DNA of 51,578 nt from Modestobacter sp. DSM 44400 (lineage in GTDB: Bacteria > Actinomycetota > Actinomycetes > Mycobacteriales > Geodermatophilaceae), in assembly GCF_900107175.1 (NCBI RefSeq), contig NZ_FNOZ01000029.1, positions 1 through 51,578 of the forward strand, read 5' to 3'. Positions within the stretch are counted from its first letter, which is position 1. Every line of letters begins with the position of its first letter. Below the pieces are notes generated by a model. That model had not been told where the DNA came from and made no database searches. It worked only from the letters and a program-made list of their open reading frames with translations. The position numbers were made by a program, and so were the translations under genes. This document shows, in pieces, positions 9,430 through 45,611 of the stretch.

Positions 9430-9739
9430 CTGCGCGTCCTCCACGGGGCGGTCGACGGTGGCTGCCACGGTGGCGCGCCGGGCGCCTGCGACGCGGCCCG
9501 GGCGGCACGTCGCGGACCGCGGGACGCGGCCGCGGTGCTCGCCGAGCAGGGAAGGGGACACCGTGCGCCGGGAGGCCGGGCGGGGTGGGCGCTTCTTCTG
9601 CGTCGTGCGTCCCGGGCACCACCGGTCTCGCGAGCCGGCGGCGGGAACGACGCTGAGGAACAGCGCCGATGCTCCATGATGTACGGACGGGGACCGCCCG
9701 TGGCAAGGGGTTGGCCGGGTGACGCTGGCCACCTCCCGC
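9430..9739 (-). other. Long 5' leader of the polyol-phosphate genes, no gene seen
   Basis: If transcription starts from the left half of the palindrome at 9740-9794, the mRNA has about 310 nt before the first start codon. An open frame exists, but its composition is unlike a protein (runs of Arg/Pro/Ser) and no start has a ribosome site. I see no known RNA motif. Confidence 0.4.
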
Positions 9740-9794
9740 GCCCCCAGCCTACCGCGGGGACGGCGCAGCGCCGTCCCCGCGGTAGGCTGGGGGC
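9740..9794. repeat. Perfect 55-bp palindrome with mirror-image -10 boxes
   Basis: Arms of 27 bp (9740-9766 and 9768-9794) are exact reverse complements around a single A at 9767. Each arm contains TAGGCT reading outward: 9783-9788 on plus, 7 nt before GTG 9796 of the leuS leader peptide, and 9751-9746 on minus, facing the polyol-phosphate genes. It therefore sits in a divergent promoter region. As RNA it would be a very strong hairpin, but the -10 positions suggest it acts mostly as DNA. Confidence 0.85.
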
Positions 9795-9795
9795 T

Positions 9796-9831
9796 GTGAC
9801 CGGCGGGTTCCTCCTTCTCCGGCCGTGCTGA
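9796..9831 (+). CDS. Leucine-codon leader peptide of leuS
   Basis: GTG 9796 starts an 11-residue peptide, MTGGFLLLRPC, ending at TGA 9829-9831. Three consecutive Leu codons (CTC CTT CTC, 9811-9819) sit in its middle. A TAGGCT -10 box ends 7 nt before the GTG, so translation is probably leaderless. A hairpin and a T-tailed terminator follow, then leuS. This is the classic layout of transcription attenuation: low charged tRNA-Leu would stall ribosomes on the Leu run and favour read-through. The codon run and the terminator are seen directly; the regulation is inferred. Confidence 0.75.
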   Translation: MTGGFLLLRPC

Positions 9832-9855
9832 CCTGATCCGATCAGACAGCACGGC
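9822..9855 (+). promoter_or_regulatory. Leader hairpin before the leuS attenuator
   Basis: GCCGTGCTG (9822-9830) pairs with CAGCACGGC (9847-9855), and CTGAT (9833-9837) pairs with ATCAG (9841-9845) inside. The left arm covers the last codons of the leader peptide, so a ribosome stalled at the Leu codons would melt it. No clear antiterminator partner was found. Confidence 0.6.
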
Positions 9856-9856
9856 G

Positions 9857-9882
9857 ACCCCTCCTGCGTGAGGGGTTTTTTT
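9857..9882 (+). terminator. Attenuator terminator upstream of leuS
   Basis: ACCCCTC (9857-9863) and GAGGGGT (9870-9876) form a 7-bp stem with a CTGCGT loop. Seven T follow (9876-9882). No plus-strand gene lies upstream except the leader peptide, so this intrinsic terminator only makes sense as an attenuator of leuS. Confidence 0.85.
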
Positions 9883-9920
9883 CTGCCCGCCGCCGGTACG
9901 AGGACCCAGGAGCACCCGAG

Positions 9921-12821
9921 ATGAGCCAGCCGGCCAGCCAGCCGACCACCGAGCCGACCGCCGATGGGGTGCCTCCCCACCGGTACACCCCGGCCCTGGC
10001 GCAGTCCATCGAGCTCGCCTGGCAGGACCGCTGGGAGGGTGAGGGGACCTTCCACACGCCGAACCCGACCGGAGCGCTCAGCGAGGGGTTCGAGCGGGTC
10101 GCCGACCGCCCCAAGGCCTTCGTGATGGACATGTTTCCGTACCCCTCCGGCGCCGGTTTGCACGTCGGCCACCCGCTGGGCTACCTGGGCACCGACGTGA
10201 CCAGCCGCTTCCTGCGCATGGACGGCCACAACGTGTTGCACCCGATGGGCTACGACGCCTTCGGGCTGCCGGCCGAGCAGTACGCGGTGCAGACCGGCCA
10301 GCACCCGCGGGTGACCACCGAGGCGAACATCGAGGCCATCGCGGCGCAGCTGCGGCGGCTGGGCGTCGACCACGACATCCGGCGCACCTTCGCCACCATC
10401 GACCCGGGCTACTACAAGTGGACCCAGTGGATCTTCACCCGGCTCTTCGAGGCGTGGTTCGACCCGGACGCCGACGGTGGCCGCGGGCAGGCACGCCCGA
10501 TCACCGAGCTGGTCGCCGAGCTGGACGCCGGTACGCGTCAGTCGGCGCCGGGCACGCTGCCCGAGGGCCGGGTCTGGGCCGAGCTGTCCGAGGTCGAGCG
10601 TCGCCAGGTGGTCGACGCCCACCGGCTGGCCTACCGGCACGAGGCGCCGGTCAACTGGTGCCCCGGGCTGGGCACGGTGCTGTCCAACGAGGAGGTCACC
10701 GCCGACGGCCGCTCCGAACGCGGCAACTTCCCGGTCTTCCGGCGTCCGCTGACCCAGTGGATGATGCGGATCACCGCCTACGCTGAGCGCCTGCTGAGCG
10801 ATCTGGACCGGCTGGACTGGTCGGATTCGCTCAAGCAGATGCAGCGCAACTGGATCGGCCGCTCCACCGGCGCGCGGATCGCCTTCCCGGTGGGGCCGGA
10901 ATCGGTGGAGGTGTTCACCACCCGGCCCGACACGTTGTTCGGCGCCACGTACCTGGTGCTGGCGCCCGAGCACCCGCTGGTCGAGGCGCTGGCCGCGGCC
11001 GACTGGCCCGACGGCGTCGACCCGCGGTGGACCGGCGGTGCCGCGACCCCGGCCGAGGCCGTGGCCGCCTACCAGCGGCAGGCCTCCCGCCGCTCGGAGC
11101 TGGACCGGCAGGCCGAGGGCCGGGAGAAGACCGGTGTCTGGCTGGGCGCGACCGCGGTGAACCCGCTGACCGGGCGCGACCTGCCGGTGTTCATCGCCGA
11201 CTACGTGCTGACCGGGTACGGCACCGGCGCGATCATGGCGGTGCCCGGTGAGGACACCCGCGACTGGGAGTTCGCGCAGGCCTTCGGGCTGCCCGTCGTC
11301 CGCACCGTGCAGCCGCCGGCCGCCTTCGACGGCGGCGCGTACACCGGCTCCGGCCCGATGATCAACTCCTCCAACGACCAGTTGTCCCTGGACGGGCTGG
11401 ACAAGGCCGGCGCCATCGCCACGGTCACCGAATGGCTGGTCGCACACGGGCACGGCGAGGCGACGACGACCTACAAGCTGCGCGACTGGCTGTTCAGCCG
11501 GCAGCGCTACTGGGGCGAGCCGTTCCCCATCGTCTACGACTCCGACGACCTGCCGATCGCCGTCCCCGAGTCAATGCTGCCGGTGCTGCTGCCCGAGGTC
11601 GACGACTACTCGCCGAAGACGTTCGCCGACGACGACGACACCTCGCTGCCCGAACCGCCGTTGTCCCGCGCGACCGAGTGGGTCACGGTCACCCTGGACC
11701 TGGGCGACGGTCCGAAGACCTACCGCCGCGAGACCAACACGATGCCCAACTGGGCCGGCTCGTGCTGGTACTACCTGCGCTATCTCGACCCCGCCGACGA
11801 CGAGCGGTTCGTGGACCCGGCGCTGGAGCGCTACTGGATGGGTCCGCGCTCGGCCGGGGACACCGGCGGGGTGGACCTGTACGTCGGTGGTGTGGAGCAC
11901 GCGGTGCTGCACCTGCTGTACGCCCGGTTCTGGCACAAGGTGCTGTTCGACCTGGGCTACGTGAGCAGCGAGGAGCCCTTCCGCCGCCTGGTCAACCAGG
12001 GCTACATCTCCGCCTTCGCCTACACCGACGCGCGCCGTTTCTACGTGCCGGCCGCCGAGGTCGTGGAGCGCGACGGACAGTTCTTCCACGACGGCGAGCC
12101 GGTCAACCGGGAGTACGGGAAGATCGGCAAGAGCCTGAAGAACATGGTGACGCCGGACGAGATGATCGAGGCCTTCGGCGCGGACACCTTCCGGGTCTAC
12201 GAGATGTCGACCGGCCCGCTGGAGCAGTCCCGGCCGTGGGAAACCAAGGCCGTCGTCGGCTCGCAGCGCCTGCTGCAGCGGGTGTGGCGGGTGGTCGTCG
12301 ACGAGGAGACCGGGCAGCCCCGGGTCGCCGACACCGAGCCGGATGCCGGCACCTCGCGGGCGCTGAACCGGGCGATCGAGGCCGTGCGGGACGGCATGGG
12401 GACGCTGCGGTTCAACATCGCCATTGCCCGGATCACCGAGTTGACCAACCACCTGACCCAGGCGTTCGGCCCCGGCACGGCGGTGCCCCGCTCGGTGGCC
12501 GAACCACTGGTCCTGCTGCTGGCCCCGCTGGCACCGCACGTGGCCGAGGAGATGTGGTCGCGGCTGGACCACCCGGACTCCGTGGCGTGGGCGCAGTTCC
12601 CGGTCGCCGAGCAGCGCTGGCTGGTGGACGACACCGTGGAGGTCGCCGTGCAGGTCAACGGCAAGGTGCGCGCGCAGGTGTCGGTGCCCGCGGACGCGGA
12701 TGCAGCCGCCCTGGAGGCGGCCGCCCGGGCCGACGAACGGATCACCGGATACCTGGACGGGGCGACCGTCCGACGCGTGGTCGTCGTGCCGGGCCGGCTG
12801 GTCAACTTCGTCCTGGGCTGA
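9921..12821 (+). CDS. leuS: Leucyl-tRNA synthetase
   Basis: A 966-residue cytosolic class I synthetase that charges tRNA-Leu. The HIGH motif is HVGH (81-84, in [18 protein letters not shown]) and KMSKS is KIGKS near 733-737, followed by LKNMVTPDE. The CP1 editing domain lies between ([38 protein letters not shown]). The catalytic core resumes at [17 protein letters not shown], and the tail [12 protein letters not shown]...[17 protein letters not shown] is the C-terminal tRNA-binding domain. An insertion with [20 protein letters not shown] is typical of actinobacterial LeuS. ATG 9921 has AGGAG 8 nt upstream. It is preceded by the leader-peptide attenuator and separates lipA from lipB in this genome. 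Confidence 0.98.
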
Positions 12822-45384: not shown

Positions 45385-45583
45385 CGTCGCCGCACACAGG
45401 GTGACCTCGATCGGGCACCGCCGAACCAGCCGGCCACACAGCCGTCTGGACCGGGGACCCACCGCAGTCCTGGGTGAGTTCTCGCGCGTCCCGCACGCCG
45501 GGTCGCACGCGTCGACGACGGCGCGCAGAGATAGGGCCGTCTCCTTCCGGCCCGAACCCGTCAGCTAACTCGGTAGGCGGTCG
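45385..45583 (+). promoter_or_regulatory. c-di-AMP riboswitch (ydaO-yuaA class)
   Basis: The 3' hallmark CCCGAACCCGTCAGCTAACT (45551-45570), followed by CGGTAGGCGG, is nearly identical to the conserved end of ydaO riboswitches. Upstream lie the other conserved blocks: CACCGCCGAACC (45416-45427) and GGGGACCCACCGCAGTCCTGGGTGA region (45450-45476). It ends about 30 nt before the start of an NlpC/P60 hydrolase. In actinobacteria this class turns off wall hydrolase genes when c-di-AMP is bound. A TACTGT -10 at 45358-45363 could be the promoter. The rest of 45277-45611 holds nothing else. Confidence 0.88.
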
Positions 45584-45611
45584 ATGTGGAGGAAATGGAG
45601 TCCCGCCAACT

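Follow-up and report, generated by a model that had tools for sequence, protein, structure and literature searches.

A probable leader-peptide attenuator of leuS in Modestobacter sp. DSM 44400, its conservation in Actinomycetes and an isoleucine version upstream of cimA

The stretch of DNA that was analysed (contig NZ_FNOZ01000029.1 of Modestobacter sp. DSM 44400, 51,578 nucleotides, hereafter the window) was found to contain the leucyl-tRNA synthetase gene leuS on the plus strand (9921..12821), with an ATG start codon at 9921 preceded by a Shine-Dalgarno-like AGGAG sequence (9908-9912). The gene was identified by TIGR00396 (leuS_bact; 884.9 bits against a cut-off of 548.4), and the LeuS protein was 88% identical to that of M. 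caceresii, which places the window close to Modestobacter. A short leader ORF was found upstream of leuS on the same strand (9796..9831), running from GTG 9796 to TGA 9829-9831 and encoding MTGGFLLLRPC (VTGGFLLLRPC before the stop as read). It contained the Leu codons CTC 9811, CTT 9814 and CTC 9817 (9811..9819), of which CTC 9811 and CTT 9814 form the conserved pair, preceded by a Phe residue in this organism. A -10 box, TAGGCT (9783-9788, plus strand), was present 7 nt upstream of the GTG, and a leaderless transcript is expected.

The ORF was followed by the presence of a plus-strand hairpin of 9 bp, P1, seen in the fold and in two alignments, whose 5' arm GCCGTGCTG (9822..9830) overlaps the final leader codons and the stop and whose 3' arm CAGCACGGC was located at 9847..9855. 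P1 abuts an intrinsic terminator (9856..9882, plus strand) with a stem at 9856-9863/9870-9877 and a U-tract at 9876-9882, which was found by scan, fold and alignments and contained 8 bp (-13.4 kcal/mol) and seven U. In the proposed attenuator, leuS would be the controlled gene. The -10 box, GTG 9796, the CTC CTT CTC codons, the hairpin, the terminator and the leuS start at 9921, all reported in the preliminary description, were read at the same positions; the terminator given there as 9857-9882 was confirmed, with the stem limits adjusted to a start at 9856/9857 and an end at 9876/9877.

The leader promoter was found to lie within a perfect palindrome of 55 nt (9740-9794), with arms of 27 bp and a spacer of 1 nt, and a mirrored -10 box is therefore present on the minus strand. 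The palindrome was present as a single copy in the genome. Upstream of 53 other leaders of the family, the last 100 nt contained no palindrome whose arms exceed 11 bp, and a recent duplication by template switching or an error of assembly may explain the palindrome of the window. Elsewhere in the window, a c-di-AMP riboswitch was found at 45409-45596 (RF00379, 52.6 bits).

When 9796-9890 was folded, both P1 and the terminator (9856-9877) were part of the structure of lowest energy (-43.8 kcal/mol; z -3.5), and an equally good fold was given by one of 200 shuffles. The terminator scan of 9500-10100 returned two overlapping matches against 0.2 expected. A hairpin fused to a terminator at 0-2 nt was found once on the plus strand of the window and not on its minus strand, and the same arrangement was present on the plus strand of one in ten Markov-random windows. 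In a single window the tandem of hairpin and terminator is unusual, yet possible by chance, and from this window by itself the leader and terminator could be read as an ordinary small transcript or a chance arrangement, with leuS transcribed from its own promoter.

The arrangement was found to be conserved, and a chance origin of the leader, P1 and the terminator is excluded for that reason. In a search of 56 Geodermatophilaceae genomes, a leader with adjacent Leu codons followed by P1 and the terminator was present in all 55 with a readable leuS start, and the remaining genome (73% complete) gave a weak match only (E 3.5e-4). Two adjacent Leu codons instead of at least three were found in six of the 55 (L016, L021, L129, L131, L133 and L135). 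Of 80 named loci, 34 of them from other phyla, the 46 actinobacterial ones were read, and 39 of these contained the element; they comprised 32 loci of Streptomyces, four of Geodermatophilaceae, and those of Amycolatopsis, Kibdelosporangium and Lentzea. The element was absent from the other seven, namely two Nocardia, Aeromicrobium, a Mycolicibacterium MAG, an Acidimicrobiaceae MAG, an Aeriscardovia MAG (containing an LLL ORF by chance) and Buchananella.

A covariance model, R1, was built from alignment A1, containing 91 distinct leaders after three identical copies were dropped. At a cut-off of E <= 0.01, matches to R1 were found in 165 of the 394 genomes sampled from the class, spread over 69 of 138 genera; among the negative class genomes, the 20 listed all belonged to family f2 of the same order, beside 209 others. 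A sample of the phylum gave 15 matches in 296, one of them outside the class, where the leader MAAALLLSPPR was followed by leuS. Sixty places in 59 class genomes were fetched, and LeuS was found downstream of 55 of them by tblastn, with one contig end and four places preceding another gene. The leader ORF passed the filter in 48 of the 55 leuS places; the other seven were L174, cut by the contig end, five places whose LLL or LLLL run was followed by a longer tail, and L192, where the only Leu codon of the leader MASQQQRLIGPR was a CTT at the place of CTT 9814. Among the matches listed, G264 was the only genome with two places (L199 and L200). They contained two leuS-like genes, each with its own Leu leader; either a genuine second gene copy or contaminating DNA may account for this.

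A TAnnnT box was found 4-9 nt upstream of a suitable start codon in 88 of 88 leaders; starts with such a box were preferred in the choice of leader start, and the fall-back was never needed in these leaders. Between the terminator and leuS, such a box was present in one of 56 family sequences, against 5.5 expected from shuffling, and leuS therefore seems to be reliant on a promoter upstream of the terminator. This scarcity of -10 boxes, together with the presence of the element in half of the genera, the covariation and the gene-matched codon swap described below, makes it very improbable that chance or an ordinary small transcript accounts for the leader and terminator, with leuS transcribed independently.

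P1 contained 99.3% paired cells in each alignment. Changes on both sides were found in three pairs of P1 and three pairs of the terminator in A1, and in five and seven pairs, respectively, in A2, which was fitted to the covariance model, leans towards it for this reason and includes two spurious rows. The terminator followed P1 at a spacing of 0 nt in 116 rows, 1 nt in 21 rows, 2 nt in 12 rows and 4 or 5 nt in two rows, so that 149 of 151 rows had a junction of 0-2 nt. A cruder regex anchor, which could slip by 3 nt, placed the junction at 0-2 nt in 137 of 151 rows and gave roughly 7 to 61 nt for the apical part of P1. The sequence CTNCTN was found in 91 of 91 rows of A1, without a gap between it and the 5' arm of P1. 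The preliminary description had proposed a leader-peptide attenuator before leuS, to be given up if the Leu codons varied while their flanks were conserved; the opposite was found, as two Leu codons were invariant in all 91 distinct leaders and P1 and the terminator were conserved with them, which supports the proposal.

Codons were counted by alignment column in the 153 rows of A1 and A2, of which two spurious antisense matches and four Ile rows were set aside and 147 leuS-type rows were kept. The codon at the position of 9814 (8-6 nt before P1) was found to be CTT in 130 leaders, CTC in 16 and CTG in one, and it was preceded by a Leu codon in 146 of the 147; the cruder anchor gave CTT in 126 of 146. 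CTT 9814, located 5 nt before P1, is presumed to be the sensor codon. Among the Leu codons of leuS bodies, CTT was found in 5 of 2526 in Geodermatophilaceae and in 0 of 2255 in Streptomyces, a yardstick that includes near-identical copies and, with leuS being highly expressed, may understate CTT. The genome contained five tRNA-Leu genes, one each with the anticodons TAG, CAG, GAG, TAA and CAA, and no tRNA-Leu with an AAG anticodon was found among its 48 tRNA matches. According to wobble rules, a tRNA with the anticodon GAG reads CUC and CUU. The tRNA-Leu(GAG) is the only tRNA-Leu of the genome with an anticodon matching CUC and, by wobble, CUU; the TAG tRNA may read CUU as well. Codon bias in leaders is explained by selective charging of isoacceptors, from theory and experiments, in the available part of PMC1183508.

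The C-terminus of the leader is unlikely to act as a peptide sequence, because in some families the ORF ends with LLLT, LLLA or LLLS and a stop just before the conserved P1. The ORF was found to stop one codon past the Leu run, with the P1 RNA kept, in L186, L187, L190, L202, L207, L215 and L216.

The stop codon was located between -2 and +25 nt relative to the start of P1 in 147 of 147 leuS-type rows, and a ribosome at the stop would therefore open P1. The 5' arm overlaps the final part or the stop codon of the ORF, which fits a hairpin whose folding depends on the position of the ribosome. Counted from the first base of the P-site codon, the distance to P1 is 11 nt when CUU occupies the A site. 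According to PMC7282821, 11 nt of mRNA fit into the bacterial channel, and hairpins 11-12 nt from the P-site codon lie at its mouth and inhibit the binding of tRNA in the A site.

P1 and the terminator share no bases. Seventeen sequences were folded with parts masked, the P1 anchor of Streptomyces being too far upstream and the 'stall' and 'stop' labels unreliable there; no terminator-excluding fold was found, as the terminator formed in every state holding both of its arms. The alternative pairings returned by the helix scan were short, G-U-rich or hidden under the ribosome. The weak pairing of the Leu codons with the 3' arm of the terminator, mentioned in the preliminary description, does exist as sequence: 5-bp windows (G-U allowed) were found in 50-62% of Geodermatophilaceae rows and in up to 97% of Streptomyces rows. 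It was not taken as an antiterminator because a pyrimidine stretch pairs here with a G-run beneath the stalled ribosome. The 5' arm of P1 and the terminator loop contained a 5-bp pairing in 84% and 94% of the Geodermatophilaceae and Streptomyces groups, respectively.

A true antiterminator helix, as in classical attenuation, might be formed by the 3' arm of P1 (9850-9853) and the terminator loop (9867-9870). This helix was found to be paired in 95.1% of cells of Geodermatophilaceae and Streptomyces, with one change on both sides from A-U to G-C, and two 5-bp registers of the P1 3' arm with the loop were present in 100% and 94% of Streptomyces rows; antiterminator and terminator hairpins are also named for Streptomyces leuS leaders in the portion of PMC1262725 that was accessible. 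However, the helix contains 4-6 bp against the 8 bp of the terminator, many other families have a different loop, and the native pairing (-6.51 kcal/mol) was not better than the swapped one (-6.78 kcal/mol) in 78 non-redundant sequences in which P1, the positive control, passed. Among the four segment pairs of the swap tests, co-evolution was found only for the two arms of P1, and swapping P1-arm or apical segments did not weaken their pairing with the terminator loop and 3' arm, so that a classical base-pairing switch is not supported. A convincing antiterminator of the trp type, sharing bases with the terminator, was found neither in the folds nor in the helix scan nor in the swap tests, and classical attenuation through such a helix is considered improbable.

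A candidate long-range pairing was found between leader codons 2-7 (9799-9816) and the stretch after the terminator (9882-9909). Duplexes of this type had a native mean of -15.8 kcal/mol against -14.5 kcal/mol when permuted, with none of 5000 permutations as low, a signal that kinship among the sequences can also produce. The loop motif TG[CT]G, 12 nt after P1, presumably resembles the core of the pause consensus; its reading as a pause site was dropped, as the loops differ in other families.

Four class matches were found to precede a protein starting M[PR]DDSFHVFDTTLRDGAQREG, with leaders of MPSQVIIISRRAG or similar in which Ile replaces Leu. The best match of the two that were tested was citramalate synthase (TIGR00977), below the cut-off because the sequence contained only about 180 residues. 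In these four matches, from another family, the model alignment puts the start of P1 4 nt past the last Ile codon, or 5 nt past it with the outermost pair uncounted; the spacing of 4 and not 5 nt counts against the proposed geometry. The genome of Modestobacter sp. DSM 44400 itself contained an Ile leader, MYATDTIIIT, with the same attenuator design upstream of cimA (L281, contig C128). Nine relatives were examined alongside: the five of the same genus contained an Ile leader of the MYATDTIIIT kind, one of another family contained a two-Ile variant and three of other families contained none.

The cimA gene was found in 50 of 54 family genomes searched, and 30 loci were returned, of which 27 contained the element and three did not. 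The 27 leaders contained an Ile codon followed by one more codon and a TAG overlapping the first base of P1, and the terminator was present 0-2 nt after P1. Their P1 was unlike that of leuS, being GCGCGCAGTC/GACTGCGCGC in most loci and a covarying variant of it in three, and the Ile codons were interspersed, without a run, in four leaders. The Ile codon nearest to P1 was ATC in 26 leaders and ATT in one. ATC is the usual Ile codon of GC-rich genomes, and its use here would fit if there were no second isoacceptor worth choosing. The role of the Leu codons suggested in the preliminary description is strengthened by this natural exchange of Leu for Ile, which accompanies the change of the downstream gene. 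The common layout, with a different P1, different codons and a matching gene, argues strongly that codon sensing works here through translation.

A T-box or another ligand-sensing RNA in place of a translated leader has a negligible probability. T-boxes control most synthetase genes of Firmicutes and unusual ones precede actinobacterial ileS, as stated in the accessible part of PMC1262725. At the locus, by contrast, no family reached its cut-off in the Rfam scans, the T-box family model included, and the 32 sub-cut-off matches of a permissive search contained no T-box; the sequence of P1 also differs between the Leu and Ile versions, in which the codon run and the layout are constant.

The leader contains a codon run matching its gene, and the terminator is located between the ORF and that gene. 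The parts, their spacing, the codon choice, the gene linkage and the codon swap are borne out by comparison, and the region is, with high probability, a ribosome-mediated transcription attenuator of leuS. We infer regulation in vivo, its direction and an antagonism between P1 and the terminator. Transcription would begin at or beside GTG 9796, and the leaderless leader would be translated by a ribosome. With charged tRNA-Leu(GAG) available, the ribosome would pass CUC-CUU, reach the stop within P1 and open P1; the adjacent terminator would then fold freely and transcription would stop near 9882. With charged tRNA-Leu(GAG) scarce, the ribosome would wait while CUU 9814 occupies its A site. P1, lying where the mRNA enters the ribosome, would stay folded and perhaps even help the ribosome to wait. 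An intact P1 joined directly to the terminator base could not be taken in at the RNA exit channel, the terminator would stay unclosed and RNA polymerase would read through into leuS. Termination under plenty and read-through under starvation are assumed because an Ile leader before a gene of Ile biosynthesis would otherwise be senseless, and if P1 is folded while RNA polymerase reads through, it would have to counteract the terminator. This steric step, taken by itself, is tentative and is held with slightly less than even confidence.

Adjacent hairpins are described as joint, effective terminators in the accessible text of PMC8355165, an effect opposite to the one proposed. P1 and the terminator might accordingly form one strong tandem terminator, in which a stalled ribosome keeps the base of P1 open and leaves a lone terminator that is too weak. 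In 149 of 151 rows P1 is fused to the terminator, and some relatives have poor U-tracts (e.g. TCTCTTC in L006 and L009), which agrees with such a tandem; termination in the absence of leader translation, as classically expected, is also retained. However, CUU in the A site leaves P1 at 11 nt, the distance of the channel mouth (PMC7282821, as far as accessible), a ribosome at the stop would open P1 most and give read-through under plenty, and the terminator of the window looks strong alone, so a tandem terminator appears unlikely though not far-fetched. Against the attenuator as proposed, the mutation of candidate regulatory codons in the ilvB leader of S. coelicolor was without effect, according to the excerpt of PMC1262725.

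Classical attenuators were predicted before leuS of S. avermitilis and S. coelicolor in 2005 (PMC1262725), and the leuL2 peptide of S. lividans, MRAVRLLLSEPR, was described in 2021 as leaderless and followed by a hairpin and a uridine stretch, with transcript data (PMC8079986), both as given in the accessible parts of these papers. The preliminary description knew of no account of leuS attenuation in this group. Within the accessible text of the open-access PMC literature, none was found for Geodermatophilaceae either, and neither the CUU preference nor a cimA version was seen described there. Judged by the common alignment A1 and model R1, the locus is an orthologue of the Streptomyces leuS attenuator. 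Both contain a three-Leu leader peptide, a hairpin and a U-tailed terminator with leuS downstream, they align without a gap between the Leu codons and the 5' arm of P1, and the peptide MRAVRLLLSEPR was identical in many of the Streptomyces loci examined. The Modestobacter peptide ends with RPC, whereas that of Streptomyces ends with SEPR, and the apical part of P1 is shorter in Modestobacter.

In the enterobacterial leu attenuator, alternative hairpins overlap. Rare Leu codons serve there as control codons, as here, but the control codon is CUA and a biosynthetic operon is controlled instead of leuS; the replacement of CUA by CUG lowered the sensitivity in experiments cited in PMC1183508, as far as its text was available. 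The LEU element before leuA of Actinobacteria also contains a leader ORF with a Leu run but controls leuA through a pseudoknot and pairing of the Leu codons with the leuA Shine-Dalgarno sequence (PMC1262725, partial text). The leuA leader of S. lividans contains no typical terminator according to the available portion of PMC8079986, whereas a terminator is present here and the gene is leuS. The frameshift hairpins of dnaX and HIV begin 11-12 nt beyond the first P-site base, comparable to the 11 nt of P1, but serve frameshifting and not attenuation, and the geometry alone is common (PMC7282821, in its accessible part).

The attenuator is of a kind already known, and it was found here to be more widespread and strikingly uniform, with an Ile sibling before cimA. 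New features are the rare CUU at the conserved Leu codon nearest to P1 (130 of 147 leaders), and the 11-nt spacing of P1 from the P-site codon together with the 0-2 nt junction to the terminator. A further new feature is the lack of a convincing antiterminator pairing and of co-evolution in the swap tests, whereas an antiterminator hairpin is named for Streptomyces in the available text of PMC1262725. A distinct modular design of Actinomycetota, with a steric P1, no overlapping antiterminator, reuse as Leu/leuS and Ile/cimA, and CUU as the codon reading out tRNA-Leu(GAG), is possible, although it is regarded as doubtful.

The missing convincing antiterminator and the Ile sibling may make the locus more than another attenuator of a known kind, and they raise the questions of whether attenuation can proceed without a competing antiterminator and whether leucine is sensed through one tRNA isoacceptor. 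LeuS is essential, and attenuation of leuS is reported in only a few Streptomyces in the literature found, as far as its text was accessible. A uniform attenuator with a rare sensor codon, a fixed spacing between ribosome and hairpin and a sibling before a biosynthetic gene is present across much of the class, and it very probably raises the output of LeuS when charged leucine tRNA runs low.
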